Assembly (NCBI GenBank): GCA_027451445.1
Contig: DAIDJG010000094.1
Coordinates: forward strand, 1 to 56,949
Source: Singulisphaera sp.
GTDB taxonomy: Bacteria; Planctomycetota; Planctomycetia; Isosphaerales; Isosphaeraceae
DNA: 56,949 nucleotides
Reading direction: 5' to 3'
In this document: positions 9,277 through 56,949 of the stretch, piece by piece
Numbering within the stretch: position 1 is the stretch's first letter
Layout of the letters: each line of letters begins with the position of its first letter
Made by a program: the position numbers and the translations under genes
The notes under the pieces: generated by a model
Seen by the model: the letters and a program-made list of their open reading frames with translations, nothing else
What the model was told of the DNA's origin: nothing
Databases searched by the model: none

Positions 9277-9441
9277 TGGGAGGGCGAGGCTCCGTCCGAG
9301 CCAGCTTTGATCCCACGGCGAATCTTCGAGCCGTGGGATCAAAGCGTGTCGAGCCGAGGCCGCTGATCACACGCGATGTTCCGATGCCTCGAAGACTCGC
9401 CATCGGAACAAGGCTGGCTCGGACGGAGCCTCGCCCTCCCA
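9277..9441. repeat. REPIN-like compound palindrome, full copy
   Basis: Outer arms 9277-9305 and 9413-9441 are 29-bp perfect inverted repeats. Inside are two perfect hairpins: 9309-9319 with 9330-9340 (11 bp), and 9377-9386 with 9401-9410 (10 bp). The two stems have unrelated sequences, yet both loops carry the same core (ATCTTCGA, and GTCTTCGA read on the minus strand), in opposite orientation. The element fills the gap between the matB-like and matC-like genes. Short frames over it are not genes. Confidence 0.9.
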
Positions 9442-32156: not shown

Positions 32157-32188
32157 TTTATCCGCAGATGTCGCAGATGGACGCAGAT
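32157..32188 (+). repeat. Left arm with three GCAGATG iterons
   Basis: It contains three copies of GCAGATG or GCAGAT in near-tandem (starting at 32164, 32173 and 32183), 9 and 10 bases apart. The third continues as GCAGATG through base 32189. Two of these copies supply in-frame ATG codons for the GxxExxY gene. Confidence 0.85.
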
Positions 32189-32578
32189 GAAGAAGGCGGA
32201 AAGCCAGGCGATCCGCAGACTTATGCGATCATCGGCGCAGCTATGGAAGTCCATCGTCAGTTAGGGCATGGATTTGCGGAACCGGTTTACCAGGATGCTC
32301 TGGAGGTTGAATTCACAGAGCGTGGGATAAGTTTCCGGCGAGAGCTTGAAATACCGGTTCTTTACAAGGGACAGCACCTCAAGAGTAAATACAAACCCGA
32401 TTTTCTCTGCTTCGATTCGATCGTTGTTGAGCTTAAGGCGCTTGCGAAGTTGACGACTTGCGAGTACGCACAGGTCATCAATTATCTCAAAGCCACCGGA
32501 TACTCCCGCGGATTACTCGTGAACTTCGGAACCTCCCGGCTCGAGTATAAACGCTTTATCCGGTCAAGTTCTTCTTAA
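32168..32578 (+). CDS. GxxExxY family PD-(D/E)XK nuclease-like protein
   Basis: A 136-residue protein of the GxxExxY family (TIGR04256, within the PDDEXK_3 clan). The name motif is at 35-41 (GFAEPVY), after the conserved IIGAAMEVHRQLG helix. The nuclease-like core reads PD (77-78), then Glu88 and Lys90 in VVELKAL, followed by a conserved Gln102 in AQVINYLKATG. These are the residues expected of a PD-(D/E)XK active site; catalysis has not been shown for the family to my knowledge. The chosen ATG (32168) is inside the left repeat arm, with GAGGAG 12 bases upstream; ATG 32177 is an alternative. The stop TAA is at the edge of the right arm. The gene is inserted between gltB and gltD. Confidence 0.85.
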   Translation: MSQMDADEEGGKPGDPQTYAIIGAAMEVHRQLGHGFAEPVYQDALEVEFTERGISFRRELEIPVLYKGQHLKSKYKPDFLCFDSIVVELKALAKLTTCEYAQVINYLKATGYSRGLLVNFGTSRLEYKRFIRSSSS

Positions 32579-32609
32579 TCTGCGTCCATCTGCGACATCT
32601 GCGGATAAA
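32578..32609 (-). repeat. Right arm with three iterons, inverted
   Basis: A perfect reverse complement of 32157-32188. It overlaps the last base of the GxxExxY stop codon. In an mRNA running through gltB into gltD, the two arms could pair into a 32-bp helix enclosing the gene. Confidence 0.85.
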
Positions 32610-40699: not shown

Positions 40700-40835
40700 G
40701 GTTTGGTGACTCCATTTGCAAAACTCTAGGTTGCCGATTCGGGCCGCTGAGACTTGCGTTGGAAAAAAACGTAACGTGAGCTCTAAGCGCGCCGGCACGA
40801 GTAAAGTCGTCAACTTTTTACCGTTGCGAAACATC

Positions 40836-40994
40836 GGGAGGGCGAGGCTCCGTCCGAGCCAGCCTTGTTCCGATGACGAGTCTTCGAGTCATTGGAACAT
40901 CGCGAGCCGTGAGCGAGCGTCGACGCGCGGTGATCCCGCGGCTCGAAGACTTGCCTCGGGATCAAAGCTGGCTCGGACGGAGCCTCGCCCTCCC
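40836..40994. repeat. REPIN-like compound palindrome, second full copy
   Basis: Outer arms 40836-40863 and 40967-40994 are a perfect 28-bp inverted repeat, identical to the arms at 9277-9441. Hairpin one pairs 40866-40877 with 40888-40899 (12 positions, one G-T wobble), loop GAGTCTTCGA. Hairpin two pairs 40932-40941 with 40954-40963 (9 of 10), with the loop core GTCTTCGA on the minus strand. Stem sequences differ from the first copy. It fills most of the gap between the PilZ gene and the flavoprotein gene. Confidence 0.9.
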
Positions 40995-41029
40995 AAATCC
41001 ATGAATGATGCTTCGTTGACTCGAAGGCT

Positions 41030-41695
41030 TTATTTGTGCCCGAGCCCTTCGGTCGACTCCGTCGTCGAAGCCCACAATCGCACCGTCTCTGCCAAGACCG
41101 CGACTTCGGCCATCGCCCCCACGCCGACATCCCCGCAGGCGAGCCGCTTCGCCTGGGGTGGAACCAACACCAACCGGGGCGCATGCCGCGCGAAGATTTC
41201 GGCCGCGGCGTCGAGCTCCCACGAATCCGGTAGGGCACCCTCTGCGCGATCGCTCAACAGCAACCGCAGATGACGGAGCGTCACCGGGCTCTGCCACATA
41301 AGAGTGTTCATCGCAGGCGCCAGGATGACGGGTCGCGTGAAGTCCCAGGCACGGAAGACACAGGTCAGGAAGTTGTCAGAAAGACCCAAGGTGAATTTCG
41401 CGAGCGTATTCGCATCAAGCGGCGCAACGATCAACAGATCGGCCCACTGGCGGAATGCGATGTGAAGCACAGGATCATCGCGCTGGTACCGGTCGCCGGC
41501 CCATTCGTCGGCATCCCGAAAGAGCGGGCCGCCCGAGGGATCGACAGGGCCGAGTGCGCAGGGGTCGAAGAAATGGAGCGCGGGCTCGGTCGCGACCACG
41601 CGCACTTCGTGCCCTTGCCCGACGAGCGCCTCAAAGAGCGCAGGCGTTCGTATGGCCGCGACGGAGCCGGTCACGCCCAGGAGGATCCGCGCCAT
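41030..41695 (-). CDS. CoaC-like flavoprotein (phosphopantothenoylcysteine decarboxylase)
   Basis: A 221-residue flavoprotein of the HFCD family. It has an N-terminal FMN site (LLGVTGSVAAIRTPAL), the active-site His78 (LHIAFRQWADLLIVAP), the PAMN motif (127-130, in APAMNTLMWQSP) and the LACGDVGVGAMAE clamp region. It is expected to decarboxylate 4'-phosphopantothenoylcysteine to 4'-phosphopantetheine in coenzyme A synthesis. It carries no CoaB synthetase domain, so CoaB must be elsewhere. The ATG at 41695 starts the fold exactly; the frame extends further upstream but overlaps the preceding gene. Confidence 0.85.
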   Translation of the reverse strand: MARILLGVTGSVAAIRTPALFEALVGQGHEVRVVATEPALHFFDPCALGPVDPSGGPLFRDADEWAGDRYQRDDPVLHIAFRQWADLLIVAPLDANTLAKFTLGLSDNFLTCVFRAWDFTRPVILAPAMNTLMWQSPVTLRHLRLLLSDRAEGALPDSWELDAAAEIFARHAPRLVLVPPQAKRLACGDVGVGAMAEVAVLAETVRLWASTTESTEGLGHK

Positions 41696-42015: not shown

Positions 42016-42471
42016 TCAGAACCCTCCTTGGCTGAGAGGGAAAGGCGGATGCACGGATTCCTTACCGCGCGTGCTGAGAGGCTAATCCGCCTTCAAGCCT
42101 CCAGTCAAGTTTTTTCCGTTCGAACTTCTCGTTCGCATGAAAGTCGTAAGGACGTCGATTCGACAGATCGTCGACTCTCTTTACCATATACGTACGCAAC
42201 TGCCGCGCCGTTCTTTCCTTTTAGCCTAGAATACGATTTCCGCAGAAGACAGCGAATTCCCCGGTCGGTTCGATGACTGAGAACAGCTCCCGCTTAGAGT
42301 CTGTCCCAATAGTGCGAGAAGCGTGGAAATGGGGACTGGCTCCGGACGTCTTCGAACGGTGCCAGTCTCCATTTCCACGCTTCTCGCTCCGCCGGAAAAG
42401 GGGGACAGGCACCTCGAAGACTCGGAGCCAGTCCCCCTTTTCCGGCTCCGCTTCGCTTCCGGGACAGACTC
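42016..42471. other. Intergenic region mostly filled by a repeat
   Basis: About 455 bases. The left half (42016-42292) has a lower GC share than neighbours and probably holds the promoter of the leftward small gene; no gene is seen. The right half is the nested palindrome 42293-42475. Confidence 0.5.
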
Positions 42472-42475
42472 TTAG
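42293..42475. repeat. Nested double-hairpin palindrome, second repeat family
   Basis: Outer arms 42293-42307 and 42461-42475 match at 14 of 15 positions. Hairpin A: 42314-42340 with 42361-42387 (26 of 27). Hairpin B: 42391-42410 with 42427-42446 (19 of 20). Loop A contains GTCTTCGA on the plus strand and loop B on the minus strand, so two opposed units are joined. Arm and stem sequences are unrelated to the 9277 family. The right arm overlaps the stop codon of the Mrr-like gene. Confidence 0.9.
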
Positions 42476-43296
42476 AACCACGCCGGCTCAGGTTCGCGCT
42501 GCGCGCCTGGGCCGAGTGCCTGCTGGACGAGCTCGACGAGCCGAGGACCGTCGATCAACTCGATGGGGTGCTCAGCGGCGAACTTTTCGGCCGCGAGTGA
42601 AAACGTGCGCGTCGTCACAAAGAACCCCTTGTGCCCGCGCAGATGCTGCATCGTACCGAGGAACTTCTGGAGCTCGGGAGAACCGACGACTCCCCGACTG
42701 TGATACTTGCACTGAACGATCGCGAGCAACCCAGCGCGCTGAACGCGCAGGTCGGCCCCCTGATCGCCCGTGCCACCGACTTGCTCAACCTCGTAACCCA
42801 TCGCCTCAAACAGCTCGCCGACGAACTCCTCGAAACCCTCAGGAGTCAACGACGCGAGCTGCGCGAGCTTGAGATCCGCGCGCTGGGCCTGCCGGCGCAG
42901 TCGCTCGACTGCCTCGCGGCCGTCGCGAACCGAGTCACGCAGGGCTTGCACACGTGTTTCCGTCGCAGCGCGTTCCACACCGTCGAGGCGCGCTGCATAA
43001 CGTTCGACTTTGAACAAAGCATTCTCGATCGTGTTGTCGAGCCTCGTCCGCTCCGCGCGGGTGAGCTGATTCTGAAACCTCCGAAAGATCGCGAAGTCCA
43101 GGTGTTCGAACGCCCCGGCCAACTCTTCGGGAGAGCGGATCGCGGGTGCTTCTTCCTGATACGGAACCGTGGTCCAGAGCAATCCTTGATGCTCACTTGA
43201 CGTTGCTCGGTCCTCAGCGGCGTGGGTCTTGAGCCACTCCAGGATCATCGAGGCGCACTGCGGTCCCAGACACTCCTTCGCAGGTTGTTCTTTCAC
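42472..43296 (-). CDS. Mrr-like restriction endonuclease-fold protein
   Basis: About 274 residues. An N-terminal part with two cysteines (ECLGPQC) precedes a helical, coiled-coil-like middle (about 80-145). The C-terminal 120 residues are an Mrr_cat nuclease: GFEEFVGELFEAMGYEVEQV, then Asp182 in DQGADLRV, and Gln195-x-Lys197 in VQCKYHSRG, followed by ELIDGPRLVEL. Mrr enzymes cut methylated or foreign DNA. No methyltransferase or specificity partner is adjacent, so it would be a stand-alone type IV-like nuclease. The start is taken as GTG 43296 with an AGGA site; ATG 43248 is the alternative. The stop lies in the nested palindrome. Confidence 0.8.
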   Translation of the reverse strand: MKEQPAKECLGPQCASMILEWLKTHAAEDRATSSEHQGLLWTTVPYQEEAPAIRSPEELAGAFEHLDFAIFRRFQNQLTRAERTRLDNTIENALFKVERYAARLDGVERAATETRVQALRDSVRDGREAVERLRRQAQRADLKLAQLASLTPEGFEEFVGELFEAMGYEVEQVGGTGDQGADLRVQRAGLLAIVQCKYHSRGVVGSPELQKFLGTMQHLRGHKGFFVTTRTFSLAAEKFAAEHPIELIDGPRLVELVQQALGPGAQREPEPAWF

Positions 43297-43391
43297 GACC
43301 TTGTTCCTAACTACGTCGGACCTTGAACGCCGTGACAGCCGATTCCTTCTCGGGGCGTTTCGCAGACCAAGGGACGCTTTCTTGATGACCC

Positions 43392-43455
43392 AACAGCACC
43401 AACGCCCGCTGCGACGGTGGATTGCCGTCGGGCGGGCGCTGCGCAGCGTGCTGTT
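43392..43455 (-). terminator. Three-step imperfect hairpin after the YHS-like gene
   Basis: AACAGCAC (43392-43399) pairs with 43448-43455, CGCCCGC (43403-43409) with 43432-43438, and GACGG (43413-43417) with 43425-43429, separated by internal loops. It begins at the end of the leftward YHS-like gene (stop at 43470) and is upstream of the Mrr-like start. It could end transcription, but there is no T-run. Confidence 0.45.
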
Positions 43456-43469
43456 ACGAACCGCATCGA

Positions 43470-44537
43470 TCAATTGCTGAGCGCTTTGATGCGGGCCGCG
43501 GCGACCTTGGCCTGCGGCGAGTCGGAATATTTCTTGACGATATCCTGATAGGACTTCAACGCCGCGGCGGTCTTTCCGGCTTTTTCGAGGTTCTGGGCGA
43601 TCTTCAGATCGGACGCTGCTTTGGCGGCCGCCTTGTCATCGGCCGGCTTGGCGGCGGGTTCGTCCGCCGGTTCGTCCGCTGTGGACTTCGCCTTCGGTGC
43701 CGATCCGGCCTTCTTCTTGGGCATGTCCTTCTTCTTCTTCGGCGTGTCGACGAGTCCTTCGAACGCACCATCATCCTTGCCACTGCTGGCGACGGCAGGC
43801 TTCGAGGGCGACTTGGCCTCCTGCTCGGCGCGGAGGGCGGCCTTCTTGACGTACTTCTCGGGGTTCTCGTTGAACTCGTCGCGGCAGCCGGTGCAGCAGA
43901 CCGGGTACGACTTCCCCTGGTAGCTCACCGTCAACGTCGCCGAGCCGCCAGTGAGGATGCACTTGGGCAAGTTGGCCGCCGCGGCGCCCGCAGCGAACGA
44001 CTCACCCTCTTTGGTAACGCCGATGTCATAAACGCGCTTGAACTGGGGCGAGTCGGCTTCCTTCTGCGACACCCAGATCGTGTAGCGGATCTTGTCGGCG
44101 TTGGGGAACATCACGATCTGTTCCTTCGCTTCACCCGCTTTGCCGACGAGGTCGAGCGTCAAGCGTTTGCCCGTCTTGTCGAGCGTGCCGACGAACGTGC
44201 GGGGCTTGCCGGCGGAGTCGGTCCCCTCAAGGGTGTATTGCTTCTTGGCGTCGTCGTAGGTGAGCTGGCCTTTCGCAATGGTCTTGTCCCCTTCCAGGGT
44301 CGCGGTCATCCCGACCGGCACGCCCTTGACGAACTTCCAGGCCCACATGTGCTTCTCTTCCCAACCCTTGACGCGATTGGCCAGGGGGACGCCCGCTCCT
44401 TTCCAGGCGCCGATCAGGTATTCGAACGGGGCAAGAGAGGGAGGGACATCCGCGTCTTCCGAGTCGGCGGCTCTCGCCGGCGCGATTCCCACGAGCACGA
44501 TCCCCAACAGTCCCAGCACCCCAATGCCTCGCGCCAT
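43470..44537 (-). CDS. Exported YHS-like metal-site protein with lysine-rich linker
   Basis: A 355-residue protein. A signal peptide (about 1-23) is followed by a beta-rich domain (about 35-180, with GAWKGAGVPLANRVKGWEEK) of the DUF1579-like type. A YHS/TRASH-like metal site follows: Cys193 in LPKCILTGG and CCTGC at 214-218. The CCTGCRDEFNENPEKYV end is the YHS signature and suggests copper or zinc binding. A lysine/alanine-rich spacer (about 235-300) leads to a short C-terminal TPR-like helical pair. Strong GGAGG lies about 7 bases before the ATG at 44537, shorter than the longest frame. A role in metal handling is an inference from the YHS motif. Confidence 0.8.
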   Translation of the reverse strand: MARGIGVLGLLGIVLVGIAPARAADSEDADVPPSLAPFEYLIGAWKGAGVPLANRVKGWEEKHMWAWKFVKGVPVGMTATLEGDKTIAKGQLTYDDAKKQYTLEGTDSAGKPRTFVGTLDKTGKRLTLDLVGKAGEAKEQIVMFPNADKIRYTIWVSQKEADSPQFKRVYDIGVTKEGESFAAGAAAANLPKCILTGGSATLTVSYQGKSYPVCCTGCRDEFNENPEKYVKKAALRAEQEAKSPSKPAVASSGKDDGAFEGLVDTPKKKKDMPKKKAGSAPKAKSTADEPADEPAAKPADDKAAAKAASDLKIAQNLEKAGKTAAALKSYQDIVKKYSDSPQAKVAAARIKALSN

Positions 44538-49831: not shown

Positions 49832-52800
49832 ATGTTCCGATCGAATCCGTCACGCGAGTTGGGGTTGTTTCGATCCAAGCGAGGGCAGCGGCGCGATCGG
49901 GCTGTGCGTCAAAAGACCGCGATCTCGCGCGGGGCAGGATTCGAGCGGCTGGAGGACCGCATAGTTTTGGCCACAGCGGCGCTTGTCGGGAATAACCTGC
50001 AAATCGCCTTCTCGGCCGGCGGAAGCACGGCGGAAAACGTAACTGTATCGGACGATGGTACGAACATCACCGTCAGCGGCGCGACTCCCATCGGTCCCTT
50101 CACGGGGTCGGTGGGGGTCGGTTCAGTCAACCAGATCACTGTTTCAGACACAGGCAATAGCACGAATCAGACACTCGCGTTCGCTGGTTCAACGACGTTC
50201 GCTCTATCCAATGGTCTGAGCGTCACACAGAGCAGCGGTGCTAGAACGCTTGATGTCACCTTCAACAATGGGGTTGACGCGACTGGCAGTTCCGGTCCGA
50301 TCACGGTCGGGTCAATGGCTGGAGGTGGTCTCGACTCGATCACGTTGAGCGCAGGCGAGGTTCTCTCGACGGCGTCTGGCGACATCACGATGTTTGCCAG
50401 CACTGGAACGACAGCACCGGTTGGTGCCATCACGATCGATGGTCCGGTCTCGACGACCGGCGGAAGCATCAACATCACCGGAATTACTTCCGCTGCAACC
50501 GCAGGCGGCGCCTACGGCGTGGATATAGATCACTCGACGGGGAACTCCGGAAGCTTGAGCGCGGGTGGCACGGGGACGGTGTTTGTTTCCGGCACGGGTA
50601 GTCTTGCGGCCACCGGCACCACAAACTACGGTGTTTATCTCAATACGGGAAAAAGTTCGAATTCCCCATTCATCACGGCAAATAATGGTGCCATTACCGT
50701 CGTGGGAACGGCCGGCGCCAATAGCTATGGGGTCTATCTCGATGACGGTTCGACGATCCAGACGTTGAATAATAATTCGATTATGATCCAATCTGACAGC
50801 CTGGCCTTTGCCGACACAAAGGTCAGTGTGTCGGCCGGAACGGGCGCCGTCACTCTTCTCACGAGGACAACGGGCACCACTATCAACCTCGGCTCTGCCG
50901 GCGGACCGACCGTCGGCGAGCTGGATCTTTCCGACACCCTTCTCGACCAGGTCACTGCGGGCACGATCCAGATTGGCGACAGCAACGCCGGAGATGTCAC
51001 CGTCAGTGCCAGCATCACGCGTAAATCCGCGACAAACCTCTCCGTGACCACCGGCGGCAGTATTAATTTCAGCACTAACCCCTCCACCCTGAATGCCGGC
51101 GGCGGCAACGTCTTTTTGACCACGGGGACCAGCGGGTCGATCACCGCCACGACAAATGGAGTGGATGTGATCGCAACCTCCGCCACGTTGAGCGCTGGCT
51201 CCGGTGGTATTGGCGTCTCGGGCACACCGATCCTGGTCACCACTTCGACCTTGGGCTTCACAGCCACAGGCAGCGGCCAGGTCTGGATTAGCGAGTCCAA
51301 TGGCGCCACGGTCAGCGGTACGGCGGGAAGCGGCAGCATCAATTTGGTGACGGGCACGGGGGACTGGACCGTCGGTGGTAACATCACCACGACCGGCAAC
51401 GCCACGCTCACCGCCAGCAAAGGGAACATCGTCGAGTCGTTGGGCACCGTGAGCGGGAACCAGGTCAACTTGATCACTGGCGGGACCACGGGCACGATCG
51501 GCGCGTCGGGTACGCCGGTTCTCACGTCGGCCAACGCGCTTGCGTTCACCGGCACCGGGGCTGGTCAGGTCTGGATCACCGAGGCGAACAGCGCTACCGT
51601 CAGCGGCACGACGGGGAGCGGCAGCATCAACCTGGTGGCGACGGCGGGTGACTGGACGATCGGCGGCGCGATCACGACCACGGGCAACACGACGCTGACC
51701 GCCAGCGCAGGGAACATCATTGAGTCGTCGGGCACGTTGAGCGGCAACGTGGTCACGCTCAACGCCGGGGGTACCAATGGCGCCATTGGTGCGTTGGGTA
51801 CGCCGGTGCTAGTGTCGTCCTCGTCCCTCGCATTCATGGCGAACACCTTGGGTAGTGGCCAGGTCTGGATCACCGAAGCCAACGGTGCCACGGTGAGCGG
51901 TGCGGCGGGAAGCGGCAGCATCAACCTGGTGACGACGACAGCTAATTGGACGATTGGGAATAACATCACCACCACGGGCGACACCACGCTGACCGCCAGC
52001 GCGGGGAACATTATTGAGTCGTCGGGCACGGTGAGCGGGAACCTCGTAACTCTGACCGCAAGCGGGACCAACGGCGCCATCGGCGCATCGGGCACTCCGG
52101 TGCTTGTGTCGTCCACGACGCTCGCATTCACGGCGAATAACGCGGGAAATGGTCAGGTCTGGATCACCGAGGCCAACGGCGCGACCGTCAGCGGCACGGC
52201 GGGTACCGGAAATATCAACCTGGTCTCGACCATCGGCAGTCTGACGATCAATACGGCTGGGATCTCGACCGGCGGCAACGTGTCGATGACCGCGACCGGA
52301 ACGGGCGGGGGTATTCTCGAGGTAGCAACTCCAGGGACTGTCACCGGCAATAACGTCGTGCTGACCGCGGATGCCGGAGGCATCGGCACGGTGGCGAGCC
52401 CGATCGTTCTGAACACCGTGACGATCACCGCTTCGACGACCAGCAACACCGGCATCAACCTCTCGGAGACCGCGACCACGAACATCACGTCCCCGGGCTT
52501 GAATGCCGGCAGCGGTACGATTGATCTCGAAGGCGGCACGTTCAATCTATCGACCTCGAACTTGATCAACACCGGCAGCGAGCTCGAGGTCGACGCCGGC
52601 ACGTTTGGCATCAGCACGTTCAGCAACACGGTGGCCCAACTGATCGTCAACGGCGGCAGCGTGACCGGCAGCTCGGGCGTCTTGACCAGCACGGCGTTCA
52701 TCGACACGCGGAGCGGTTCGGTCAGCGCGATCCTCGCCGGAGCGAATGGTCTGACGCAGAGTACCGCGGGGGCGACGGCGCTTTCCGGAGCGAATACGTT

Positions 52801-55800
52801 TACGGGCGGGGTCACGATCAACGGCGGAACGCTCCAGCTTGGGAGCACCGGCGCGTTGAATGCGACGACCCCGAACGCGGTGACCTTCGGCGCTTCAAGC
52901 ACGGGCGATCTGCAGCTGCACGGTCAAAGCGTCACGATCGCTGGTCTGTCAACGAGTTCACCCGTGGGCACGCCGGTCGTCGAGAACGCCAACGCCACGG
53001 CTGCCACGCTGACGGTGAACAACTCCTCGTCCAACACCTTCGCGGGCACGCTCCAGAACGGCACGGGCGGCGGCGTGCTGAGCCTCACTATGTCGGGTGC
53101 AAGCACACTCATCCTCACGGGCACCAACACGTACACCGGCACGACGAAGGTTAGTAACGGAACGCTCCAGGTCGACGGCTCCCTCGCCTCAGGCAGCCCG
53201 GTGACGGTGCAGAGCGGGGCGACGTTGGACGGGACCGGGACGGTCAATGGATCCGTCGACGTCCTGAGCGGTGGTCATTTCCATCCCGGCCATAGCCCGG
53301 GGATCATCACGACCGGCGCCCTGACGCTCGAGTCGAGCTCGAACTTCGACGTGGATCTCGCTGGCCCATTGCCGGGCGTCGGCGGCTACAGCCAGGTCAT
53401 CACCACGGGCACTCCCACCCTGACGGGGTCGAAGCTCAATATCAACCCGACCTACACGCCCTCGGGGAGCACGTTCATCGACCTGATCCACAACACGAGC
53501 GGCAACCCGGTCGTCGGCACCTTCAGCGGCTACGCGGAAGGAGCCACGGTGAACGTCAACGGCGTGAACCTGACGCTCAGTTACGTCGGTGGTTCCACAG
53601 GGCACGATGTCACGTTGTCGGCTGCCGGTGCGTTCACCTACACGGATACCACGGGTGGCAACACCTTTACAGTGAAGCAGTCTGGCTCGGATGTCGTGCT
53701 CTACAATGGAGCAACGCCCATTGACACACGGCCCATGTCGTTGATCACGTCCTACACGATCACCGATAGCAGCACGGTGTCTGACACTTTCATCGTGGAT
53801 TACTCCGGAGGCAACCCAATCACCTCCGGTGGTCTCTTCGTCAACGGCTCGACCACGGGCACGTCCGACCAACTGAATATCACCGGCGGCAGCGCGACGA
53901 CGATTACCGACACATTCACTAATGCTCACGATGGTACAGTGAATCTCGACGGCTCGCTCATTACGTACACCGGGCTGAGCCCGATCTCCGACAACATGAG
54001 CGTGACGAGCCGCGTCTTTGTGTTCAACAACGCGGGCAACGCGATCAACCTTACGGACGGTACGACCCCCAACGACGGTAAGATGACCATCTCGGACCCG
54101 GGCAATGCCGAGACGGTGCCTGACTTCACGGTGCCGAGCGCCTCGCTCGAAATCGACACGGGAACGGGGGTGACGAACTCGGTGACGGTGTCGTCGGTCG
54201 ACCAGCAGTTCTTTGCCTCGCTGATCATCAAGGGGAATACGGGCACCGATACGGTCAATTTGAATGCGCCGCTGAGCTTGGGCTCGCCGACGTCGGCCGG
54301 CAACCTCACGGTGACGAACGCCGAGACGATCAACCTGAATGCCAGCGTGAGCACGAATGCGAACGCGATCGCAACGGCCGGCACCGTCAACCTGGCTGGG
54401 CCGGTTACCCTTGGGGCGGGTGTGAGCATCGATACCCATGCCGCGACCAGCGGCAATATCATGTTCGGGAGCACCATCGCCGGCGGGGGGAATACGCTGA
54501 GCCTGAACAGCGGGTCGAACGGCACGATCTCGGTGACGGGTGGCGTCTCGAACGTGAGCACGCTGACCGTGGTGAACAGCGGCGGCGCGACGTTCGGCAG
54601 CACGCTCGGGGCGGGGACGGTCGACCTTCAGAATACGAACGGTTTGGTCAAGTTCGTCGGTACCGCGACGATTACAACCTTGACCACGCACGCCCAGCTC
54701 TACAGCGTCGAGTTTGACCCGGGGGGGACCATCACCAACGCGGCCAGCTTCCTGAACACGGGAAGCGTGACTCTGGGCGATTCGTCCGGCAGTTCGACCA
54801 CCTTCACGGGCGGCCTCGACACGACGGGCGGGCCCAGTGGCACGAACCTCGCGGGCACCGTCGCAACCACGAACACGGCGTTGAAGCTTGGGGCCGCGAC
54901 CCTGACAGCGGCCACGACCCTCAATTCGGGCGGCGGGGCGATCCAGGGTTCTTCGGTCACCGGCGGCGGCAACACGCTGGGCCTGAATAGCGGAACGACG
55001 GGGACCATCACGTTCTCGGGCGCTGTGGACAACGTGTCGACGCTGACGATCTCTCAGAGCAACGGTGCAACGTTCTCCGGCAGTCTCGGGGCGGTGACGG
55101 CTGGGGCGGTCACGATCAGCGACACGCAAGGAGGTAAGACCGTCGCGTTCGACGGCAGCACAAAGATCACAACCCTGACCGCAACCGGAACGGCCAACGC
55201 CTACAACGTCACGGTGGACGGTGCGACCAACGCGATCACGACCGCGTCGCTCGCCAACACGGGCGCGGTGACACTTGGGCAATCAGGCGGCACGACGACG
55301 GTCACGAACGGTATCAATACCACCGCTGAGGCAGGCGGAACGACAATCGCGGGGACCATCCAGACGGACGGCCAGGCGATCGACCTGGGCGGTACTCACA
55401 GCGTCACACTTGGCGCGGACGCCTCGCTCGACGCTACGCACAACGCCCACCCGGCCGGAGCGGCCATCACGCTGGGGGCGATCACGGGTGCATCTCATGC
55501 ACTGGCGCTGAACAGCGGAACCGGAGGCACGATCAGCGGCACGAGCGCTGACGCGGTGAGCACCCTGACGATCACTCAGAGCAACGGCACGGCGTTCTCG
55601 GGCGCCGTTGGCTCGGGAACGGCCGGGGCCGTGAGCATCACGGATACTCAGTCCGGAAAGACGGTGGCCTTCGACGGCAACACGCATATCACCACGCTGA
55701 CTGTCCCCGCCACCTCGCACACCTATAACGTCACCCTCGACGGCATGACCAACATCGTGGACAACGCCGCCGCGTTCCACAATTCGGGTGTCGTGACGCT

Positions 55801-56949
55801 GGGCCAGGCACTCGGGACGACGACGTTCACCGGGGGCCTCGACACCTCGAGCGGCCCGAGCAACACGAACCTCGCCGGCACAATTGCCACCACCAATACG
55901 GCCTTGACGCTTGGCAAGGTGACACTTACCGCCGCCACGATCACCGACTCCGGGGCCGGCACGCTCGACTTCAAGGGAGCGGTCGATGGCAACTACTCGC
56001 TCAACGCCAACAGCACCGTCACGACGACGTTCGAGCAACCCGTCGGCGGCTCGAACGCGCTCACAAGCCTGACGACGAATTCCGGCGGAACGACGGTTAT
56101 CGACACGACGGTCGTCAACACCTTGGGCACGCAGTCTTACAACGACGGCGTGACCGTGGGCGCGAACGCGACGTTGACCGGCGCCGGGATCTCTTTCGGT
56201 TCGACGGTCGATGCGAACACCGACGGCAGCAATTCGCTCAACGTTTCCGACAGTGGGACGACCACGTTTAGCGACACGGTGGGCGGCACGCACCCGCTCC
56301 TGGCCCTGAGTATCAACGGTGGCGGGACCACGGATCTCAACGGCGGCGGAATCGCCACCACAACGGGCGGCCAGGCGTATCACAATGCTGTGCTGCTCGG
56401 CACGAAGGCCGCCTCGCTCACGACCACGAGCGCGTCGCCGATCGAGTTCTTCAACACGGTCGATGGTGGCGTCAACCTGGCGATCAACTCGGGGAGCACC
56501 GCGACGAAATTCGATATGGCCGTCGGTAGCGGGACTCCCATCGGTAGCGGCACAGGAGCGTCCATCGCGCTCACCTCGTCCGGGCCGACGACGTTCAGCA
56601 GCACCGTCAAGAGCGCCACGGGCATCACGGCCACCGGGCCGGTCACGTTCGACAACAACGTTACCATCAACGGAGCAGGGACGGCCTCGGACCTGCAAGG
56701 CGACGTCACCCTCAACAACGGCCTGACCTTCGGTTCGGCCGGTGACGTGAGCTTCGGCACCACCAGCGCCAATACCTTGACCCTCTCCAGCGGTTCGCCG
56801 ACGATCTCGACCACTGGCACCGGTGCGGTCACCATCAACTCGGCCGTTACGGGCAACACCAACGACTTGACGATTAACGCGGCAGGCGCGGTGACGCTCA
56901 ACGGGGCGCTCTCCAACATGGGGAAGGTCGCCGTCACCAGCAGCGGGAG
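49832..56949 (+). CDS. Giant repetitive secreted protein, C-terminus beyond window
   Basis: An open frame of over 2370 residues that runs off the window. It starts MFRSNPSRELGLFRSKRGQ and has a basic N-terminus and then GFERLEDRIVLATAALV, again an LE-x-R-type leader, paralogous to the neighbour. Its body is Thr/Gly/Ser-rich beta repeats. It contains 96-98 residue tandem units (51281-52222), passages like the autotransporter-associated beta-strand repeat (LILTGTNTYTGTTKVSNGTL near 53100-53170; ANTFTGGVTINGGTLQLG near 52793), and a second family of about 170-residue units (54803, 55301, 55826). The role is presumably adhesion, surface layer or matrix. The opposite-strand long frames are shadows of this gene. 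Confidence 0.8.
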   Translation, partial: MFRSNPSRELGLFRSKRGQRRDRAVRQKTAISRGAGFERLEDRIVLATAALVGNNLQIAFSAGGSTAENVTVSDDGTNITVSGATPIGPFTGSVGVGSVNQITVSDTGNSTNQTLAFAGSTTFALSNGLSVTQSSGARTLDVTFNNGVDATGSSGPITVGSMAGGGLDSITLSAGEVLSTASGDITMFASTGTTAPVGAITIDGPVSTTGGSINITGITSAATAGGAYGVDIDHSTGNSGSLSAGGTGTVFVSGTGSLAATGTTNYGVYLNTGKSSNSPFITANNGAITVVGTAGANSYGVYLDDGSTIQTLNNNSIMIQSDSLAFADTKVSVSAGTGAVTLLTRTTGTTINLGSAGGPTVGELDLSDTLLDQVTAGTIQIGDSNAGDVTVSASITRKSATNLSVTTGGSINFSTNPSTLNAGGGNVFLTTGTSGSITATTNGVDVIATSATLSAGSGGIGVSGTPILVTTSTLGFTATGSGQVWISESNGATVSGTAGSGSINLVTGTGDWTVGGNITTTGNATLTASKGNIVESLGTVSGNQVNLITGGTTGTIGASGTPVLTSANALAFTGTGAGQVWITEANSATVSGTTGSGSINLVATAGDWTIGGAITTTGNTTLTASAGNIIESSGTLSGNVVTLNAGGTNGAIGALGTPVLVSSSSLAFMANTLGSGQVWITEANGATVSGAAGSGSINLVTTTANWTIGNNITTTGDTTLTASAGNIIESSGTVSGNLVTLTASGTNGAIGASGTPVLVSSTTLAFTANNAGNGQVWITEANGATVSGTAGTGNINLVSTIGSLTINTAGISTGGNVSMTATGTGGGILEVATPGTVTGNNVVLTADAGGIGTVASPIVLNTVTITASTTSNTGINLSETATTNITSPGLNAGSGTIDLEGGTFNLSTSNLINTGSELEVDAGTFGISTFSNTVAQLIVNGGSVTGSSGVLTSTAFIDTRSGSVSAILAGANGLTQSTAGATALSGANTFTGGVTINGGTLQLGSTGALNATTPNAVTFGASSTGDLQLHGQSVTIAGLSTSSPVGTPVVENANATAATLTVNNSSSNTFAGTLQNGTGGGVLSLTMSGASTLILTGTNTYTGTTKVSNGTLQVDGSLASGSPVTVQSGATLDGTGTVNGSVDVLSGGHFHPGHSPGIITTGALTLESSSNFDVDLAGPLPGVGGYSQVITTGTPTLTGSKLNINPTYTPSGSTFIDLIHNTSGNPVVGTFSGYAEGATVNVNGVNLTLSYVGGSTGHDVTLSAAGAFTYTDTTGGNTFTVKQSGSDVVLYNGATPIDTRPMSLITSYTITDSSTVSDTFIVDYSGGNPITSGGLFVNGSTTGTSDQLNITGGSATTITDTFTNAHDGTVNLDGSLITYTGLSPISDNMSVTSRVFVFNNAGNAINLTDGTTPNDGKMTISDPGNAETVPDFTVPSASLEIDTGTGVTNSVTVSSVDQQFFASLIIKGNTGTDTVNLNAPLSLGSPTSAGNLTVTNAETINLNASVSTNANAIATAGTVNLAGPVTLGAGVSIDTHAATSGNIMFGSTIAGGGNTLSLNSGSNGTISVTGGVSNVSTLTVVNSGGATFGSTLGAGTVDLQNTNGLVKFVGTATITTLTTHAQLYSVEFDPGGTITNAASFLNTGSVTLGDSSGSSTTFTGGLDTTGGPSGTNLAGTVATTNTALKLGAATLTAATTLNSGGGAIQGSSVTGGGNTLGLNSGTTGTITFSGAVDNVSTLTISQSNGATFSGSLGAVTAGAVTISDTQGGKTVAFDGSTKITTLTATGTANAYNVTVDGATNAITTASLANTGAVTLGQSGGTTTVTNGINTTAEAGGTTIAGTIQTDGQAIDLGGTHSVTLGADASLDATHNAHPAGAAITLGAITGASHALALNSGTGGTISGTSADAVSTLTITQSNGTAFSGAVGSGTAGAVSITDTQSGKTVAFDGNTHITTLTVPATSHTYNVTLDGMTNIVDNAAAFHNSGVVTLGQALGTTTFTGGLDTSSGPSNTNLAGTIATTNTALTLGKVTLTAATITDSGAGTLDFKGAVDGNYSLNANSTVTTTFEQPVGGSNALTSLTTNSGGTTVIDTTVVNTLGTQSYNDGVTVGANATLTGAGISFGSTVDANTDGSNSLNVSDSGTTTFSDTVGGTHPLLALSINGGGTTDLNGGGIATTTGGQAYHNAVLLGTKAASLTTTSASPIEFFNTVDGGVNLAINSGSTATKFDMAVGSGTPIGSGTGASIALTSSGPTTFSSTVKSATGITATGPVTFDNNVTINGAGTASDLQGDVTLNNGLTFGSAGDVSFGTTSANTLTLSSGSPTISTTGTGAVTINSAVTGNTNDLTINAAGAVTLNGALSNMGKVAVTSSG
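51281..52222 (+). repeat. Tandem coding repeat in the giant protein
   Basis: Units start at 51281, 51569, 51863 and 52157 (spacing 288, 294, 294 bases; 96-98 residues). Each begins GQVWI(T/S)E and contains ATVSG, then a GS(I)NLV strand and an ITTTGN(T/A)TLTAS block. The fourth diverges after about 20 residues. Confidence 0.85.

Follow-up and report, generated by a model that had tools for sequence, protein, structure and literature searches.

The genome analysed (G000; 10.9 Mb in 622 contigs, Isosphaeraceae-like) harbours two kinds of small, non-coding mobile DNA in hundreds of copies, both built of nested hairpins. The ends and stems differ between the two repeat families and the apex is constant, which suggests a shared origin; as folded single strands, both could possibly be served by a common enzyme. 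The families are designated F1 (the family of the element at position 42293) and F2 (that of the element at 9277). The window is the whole stretch of DNA that was analysed, contig 94 of this genome (56,949 nucleotides). Relatives of the same family that carry the repeats include Aquisphaera insulae and several soil MAGs.

Loop motif in the window and in the genome

The initial annotation attributed the motif RTCTTCGR to seven hairpin loops of the window, always oriented toward the arm on the same side. All seven were read at these places and in this orientation, with the motif on the + strand in left hairpins and on the - strand in right hairpins:

2940-2949: loop GCGTCTTCGG
9320-9329: loop GAATCTTCGA
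9387: loop CCTCGAAGACTCGC
40878-40887, + strand: loop GAGTCTTCGA
40942: loop CTCGAAGACTTG
42346: loop ACGTCTTCGAAC
42411: loop ACCTCGAAGACTCG

The octamer RTCTTCGR alone is weak evidence. Its 26 occurrences in the window are twice the expectation (12.2 +/- 3.6 in shuffles), and the matches outside hairpins are mostly background, since such an octamer is frequent in this GC-rich genome. What settles the matter is the longer apex: genome-wide, the 12-mer CGAGTCTTCGAG has 324 occurrences, versus 2 for the reversed control pattern. In 712 kb read directly, a sample picked partly for containing F1 or F2 copies, GAGTCTTCGA occupies 99 sites, 98 of them in the two families (69 F2, 29 F1, 1 elsewhere), and 97 of the 99 lie at a hairpin apex. 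The left F1 hairpin carries an extended form of the loop, GGACGTCTTCGGAC.

The genome-wide scan of hairpin loops, proposed earlier as a possible refutation, gave a mixed answer: the motif is far above background, but many other loops exist. Of 32 strong hairpins of all kinds, 25 carry a different loop; the motif is therefore ruled out as a trait of hairpins generally and belongs to the two repeat families. Further strong hairpin families with other loops (TTCGGAACCCC, GCGCAAGCGAGG, CGTAGACCTCACGC) are located at L044:15264, L061:9131, L046:5794, L041:9286 and L069:12400.

The window also includes repeats of other types. A 39-nt inverted repeat (97% complementary, CGCAGATG units) at 32157-32195 and 32571-32609 lies on either side of a small ORF, and direct repeats of 280 and 150-190 nt are situated in large minus-strand ORFs (51269-52248 and 54795-55966), probably corresponding to a repetitive protein.

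Anatomy and insertion of the F1 and F2 elements

F1 is an IS5-like MITE with two REPIN-type hairpins inside. The boundaries of the copy at 42293 were corrected to a 175-bp unit, exactly 42297-42471, plus a TTA duplication on both sides:

42294-42296: left target-site duplication TTA
42297-42307, + strand: left terminal inverted repeat of the F1 MITE, GAGTCTGTCCC
42314-42387, + strand: F1 hairpin A with REP-type arms GGGGACTGGCTCC and GGTGCCAGTCTCC and apex GGACGTCTTCGAAC (42344-42357)
42391-42446, - strand: F1 hairpin B with REP-type arms, two T.T mismatches and apex CGAGTCTTCGAG (42413-42424, - strand)
42461-42471, - strand: right terminal inverted repeat of the F1 MITE
42472-42474: right target-site duplication TTA, which also forms the stop codon of an Mrr-type gene (42472-43473, - strand)

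The terminal inverted repeats (TIRs), the TNA duplications and an empty orthologous locus identify F1 as a MITE with the IS5-group type of duplication. Duplication of a TNA target is a property of IS5 groups. In F1, TIRs are accompanied by a duplication of this fixed length: identical TNA triplets stand at both ends in 12 of 24 MITE copies, where 1/64 per copy is expected. The orthologous locus of G001 is without the element and has TCA in place of TTA; homology restarts there exactly at the duplication, with a clean right boundary and a left boundary that could not be aligned. The Mrr-type restriction endonuclease gene stays whole, because the MITE duplication coincides with its stop codon. 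No autonomous IS with the TIR GAGTCTGTCCC was found beside the six DUF4096 transposases (the only family searched), and with no matching TIR these were rejected as F1 partners. The F1 hairpin core also occurs outside the IS5-like MITE, in a different basal stem (CCTAACAAAA...), at L049:17197 and L061:9602.

F2 is a REPIN that belongs to a second lineage of RAYTs (REP-associated tyrosine transposases), and G000 is the only genome in which two hairpins with the common apex lie within its spacer. Its copies in the window consist of the following parts:

9278-9440: F2 element with REP arms GGGAGGGCGAGGCTCCGTCCGAGCCAGC at both ends and two inner hairpins
9307-9342, + strand: left hairpin (A type) of this element, loop GAATCTTCGA at 9320-9329
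9376-9411, - strand: right hairpin (T type), loop GAGTCTTCGA on the - strand
40836-40994: F2 element of the 159-bp type, loops at 40878-40887 (+) and 40943-40952 (-)
40781-40835, + strand: left outer inverted segment around the 40836 copy (GGGCTCGGGCA...), common to copies of the 159 type
40995-41045, - strand: right outer inverted segment around the 40836 copy
2899-2969, + strand: degenerate F2 half-copy with one arm and one hairpin, loop GCGTCTTCGG (2940-2949)

The arms of F2, in which GGAG is present, number 216 in G000; like F1, and as in REPINs, the family is dispersed in high copy number. Each of the 34 typable elements combines one A-type (GATC) and one T-type (GTTC) hairpin. Most F2 cores are themselves enclosed by larger inverted segments, which fall into at least two unrelated kinds, and the elements are therefore nested palindromes. 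A direct repeat abutting the core was found in none of 36; around copies of the 165 type, a putative TA-duplicating MITE with the TIR GAGCGGTTT has identical flanking dinucleotides in 6 of 11 cases, 5 of these being TA. A third inverted context (CGCAAGCGATTG...CAATGCGCG) surrounds the F2 core at L013:1387-1550, with an IS200-like gene on one side and putative cas2 and cas4 genes on the other. The distance of 300 bp between this copy and the IS200-like gene was judged to be chance, because the gene's own REPs are GCCTGGGGC repeats.

Constraint on the apex and RAYT linkage in relatives

Among 87 F2 half-copies the mean pairwise difference is 0.018 in the loop, 0.020 in the REP arm and 0.023 at fixed stem positions, and it rises to 0.40 at stem pairs 4-7 and to 0.39 in the downstream spacer. 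At the loop positions, conservation is 98-100%. All four pair types occur at stem pairs 4-7, where the Watson-Crick fraction is 0.80-0.82 versus 0.58-0.59 +/- 0.02 (about 2.5%) in shuffles that take no account of kinship among the copies (z about 9-10). The apex, a part of the spacer, is thus as conserved as the arm, and the less conserved spacer of REPINs is not seen here. This pattern looks like a protein footprint, in which the loop and the loop-proximal and basal pairs would be read and the middle of the stem would simply have to pair.

Outside G000 the distribution of the two families is different. The apex in the F2 context is present in 180 copies in G000 and in 0-1 copies in each of 44 other Isosphaerales genomes, the same genus included; the genome from that genus has no F2-type hairpins. 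The F2 arm in relatives forms a plain REP or a REPIN with an unrelated short spacer and no such inner hairpins (plain doublets in G024, G005 and G017). F1 hairpins with arms GGGGACWGGCWCC number about 190 in G000, occur in 13 of 58 other genomes searched and stand alone in many Isosphaeraceae. Since the search pattern fixed the stem core GGGGACWGGCWCC, only the variation of the loop is informative, and the loop does change: it is GACGGCTKCGAG in G012, GGAGCGCAGCGCAG in G017 and G030, GGGGTACTCGACC in G002, and GAGTCTTCGAG in G000, G005, G033 and G009. The F1 loops of G017, G030 and G021 have GCGCAGC or GCGAAGC cores, resembling GCGAAGC, a very stable DNA mini-hairpin. Of about 50 copies of the F1 stem, 37 retain both T.T mismatches, which can be likened to the unpaired bulge preserved in the substrate of E. 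coli TnpA_REP (PMC8266576).

Two claims of the initial annotation are thereby narrowed. A constant loop on covarying stems holds within G000, where the F2 loop differs by 0.018 and pairs 4-7 are compensated, but not as a general rule, the F1 loop being different among relatives. Recognition of the loop by a common factor agrees with the constraint on the F2 loop in G000, which is what a recognised part would have, but the motif is no universal tag, F1 loops being genome-specific.

F1 hairpin arms match the REPs of a lineage of RAYT genes (Y1 HUH transposases) of Isosphaeraceae. In G012, a RAYT gene has two F1 hairpins immediately upstream, and F2-like REPs accompany a RAYT gene as well (two upstream and four inverted downstream). 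In G029 (7.7 Mb) there are only two strict F1 hairpins, one of which adjoins a RAYT gene with a further variant next to it. F1-type RAYT genes are flanked by inverted AAAAGGGGAC repeats at 3.2 per kb within 350 bp versus 0.19 per kb beyond, overlapping matches inflating both figures alike. One RAYT lineage (L199, L200-L209 and other Isosphaeraceae loci) has inverted AAAAGGGGAC(ATTCTAC) repeats on both sides and represents a REP class without the GTAG tag. In the fragmented G000 assembly (622 contigs), no RAYT gene is flanked by REPs that match those of F1 or F2 exactly; the flanks are of the same style as those of F1-type RAYTs, with different REPs, and these genes were ruled out as direct carriers. 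In G000, the nearest homologue of the F2-type RAYT is only about 28% identical; an intact G000 homologue (C360) shares 51% identity with the protein of the G012 RAYT C129. F1 or F2 REPs flanking a RAYT gene of the same genome are thus found in G012 (F1 and F2) and G029 (F1), and not in G000.

Origin of the common apex and comparison with known systems

The two families, described earlier as unrelated, are not simply so, as the apex CGAGTCTTCGAG is common to both in G000 and appears best explained by descent. It is fairly probable that F1 and F2 are nested non-autonomous single-stranded DNA elements, whose common apical spacer goes back to one ancestor and is probably maintained by a single Y1 transposase. 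The apex could have begun as the spacer of an F1 REPIN and then passed to F2 in the lineage of G000. F1 REPIN hairpins would have been captured by an IS5-like MITE, and the copies of both families could spread in the form of folded single strands through the action of a Y1 transposase; we infer the descent of the apex, the enzyme and the single-stranded step. This transposase would make contact with the REP arm, the apex and the pairs next to the loop, whereas at stem positions 4-7 pairing alone would suffice. Contacts with loops or unpaired stem bases are described for TnpA_REP proteins (PMC8266576). The weak point of the Y1 transposase reading is that the G000 assembly is without a RAYT carrying exactly the F1 or F2 REPs. 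Because the F1 loop varies by genome in relatives, loop recognition would have to be lineage-specific: a single universal loop-binding factor is excluded on this comparison, and a lineage-specific one would still be compatible. More tentatively, the constant loop may be a common handle by which one single-strand transposase processes both families, one of them hitch-hiking via a captured hairpin tip.

The common apex could also be a founder effect, a rather unlikely course in which the spacer was copied once from F1 to an F2 ancestor and recent bursts spread it with no recognition involved. The confinement of the F2-type apex to G000 and the free variation of the F1 loop among related genomes agree with this. 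However, the F2 spacer and four stem pairs have diverged by 0.39-0.40 per site and the loop by only 0.018, and such uneven divergence argues against a recent burst, which would leave all sites alike. Convergence of independent loops on one stable apex is very improbable: stable tips do seem favoured, as other genomes have other compact apices (e.g., GCGAAGC-like mini-hairpins in G030 and G021), but 12 identical bases in two families of one genome could hardly arise in this way while other stable apices were available (324 occurrences versus 2 for the control).

A role in host RNA, as bidirectional terminators, mRNA stabilisers, targets of RNA-binding proteins or partners in kissing of opposed loops, is improbable too. 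Predicted folds are strong, the copies in the window are intergenic, and the apex on one strand is predicted to form tandem G.A pairs with a UCUU tetraloop. Against this, an Rfam scan of the window gave no match, F2-type hairpins are absent in the same-genus genome and number 0-1 elsewhere, and target duplications are a mark of mobile DNA. For the kissing interaction suggested by the initial annotation no evidence was obtained, and it was dismissed as a trivial by-product of the palindromic layout: every inverted-repeat element necessarily has left and right loops that are complementary.

Among known systems, F1 is similar to IS5-family MITEs in its short TIR, 3-bp TNA duplication, size of about 175 bp and lack of coding capacity. 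It differs in its interior, formed by two REPIN hairpins, and in that no autonomous partner was found among DUF4096 transposases. REPINs inside classic DDE-type MITEs combine two unrelated mobility systems on one piece of DNA. IS200/IS605 ends (IS608, ISDra2) likewise have a left and a right hairpin that differ from each other and contain unpaired stem bases, and Y1 transposases contact the loop and mismatched bases (PMC8266576); in F1 and F2, in contrast, the two hairpins are inverted to each other and enclose no transposase gene. GTAG/CGTC palindromic repeats, members of which are reported in Planctomycetes, are palindromic repeats with family-specific loops (PMC3733652), whereas the feet of F1 and F2 are without GTAG or CGTC (GGAG in F2 arms, AAAAGGGGAC in F1-type RAYTs).

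REPINs are thought to be read via the REP arm and foot, with a spacer that matters mainly for length and folding. In the present case the apex within the spacer is constrained like the arm and is common to two families. The closest system is the REPIN or BIME with its RAYT (REPtron; PMC3116915, PMC6006769), which shares inverted REP doublets forming hairpins, high intergenic copy number, REPs beside RAYT genes (seen here in relatives) and compensatory changes in the spacer. It differs in that the present spacer additionally contains two hairpins whose apex is invariant, and in that a matching RAYT was not found in G000. Known REPIN spacers also have compensatory changes, yet are less conserved than the REP arms (PMC3116915), and the invariant apex in the F2 spacer departs from them. 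If a transposase reads the apex, non-autonomous elements could change enzymes, or use one in common, by capturing a loop. The variable paired positions 4-7 amount to a natural survey of the stem bases that matter.
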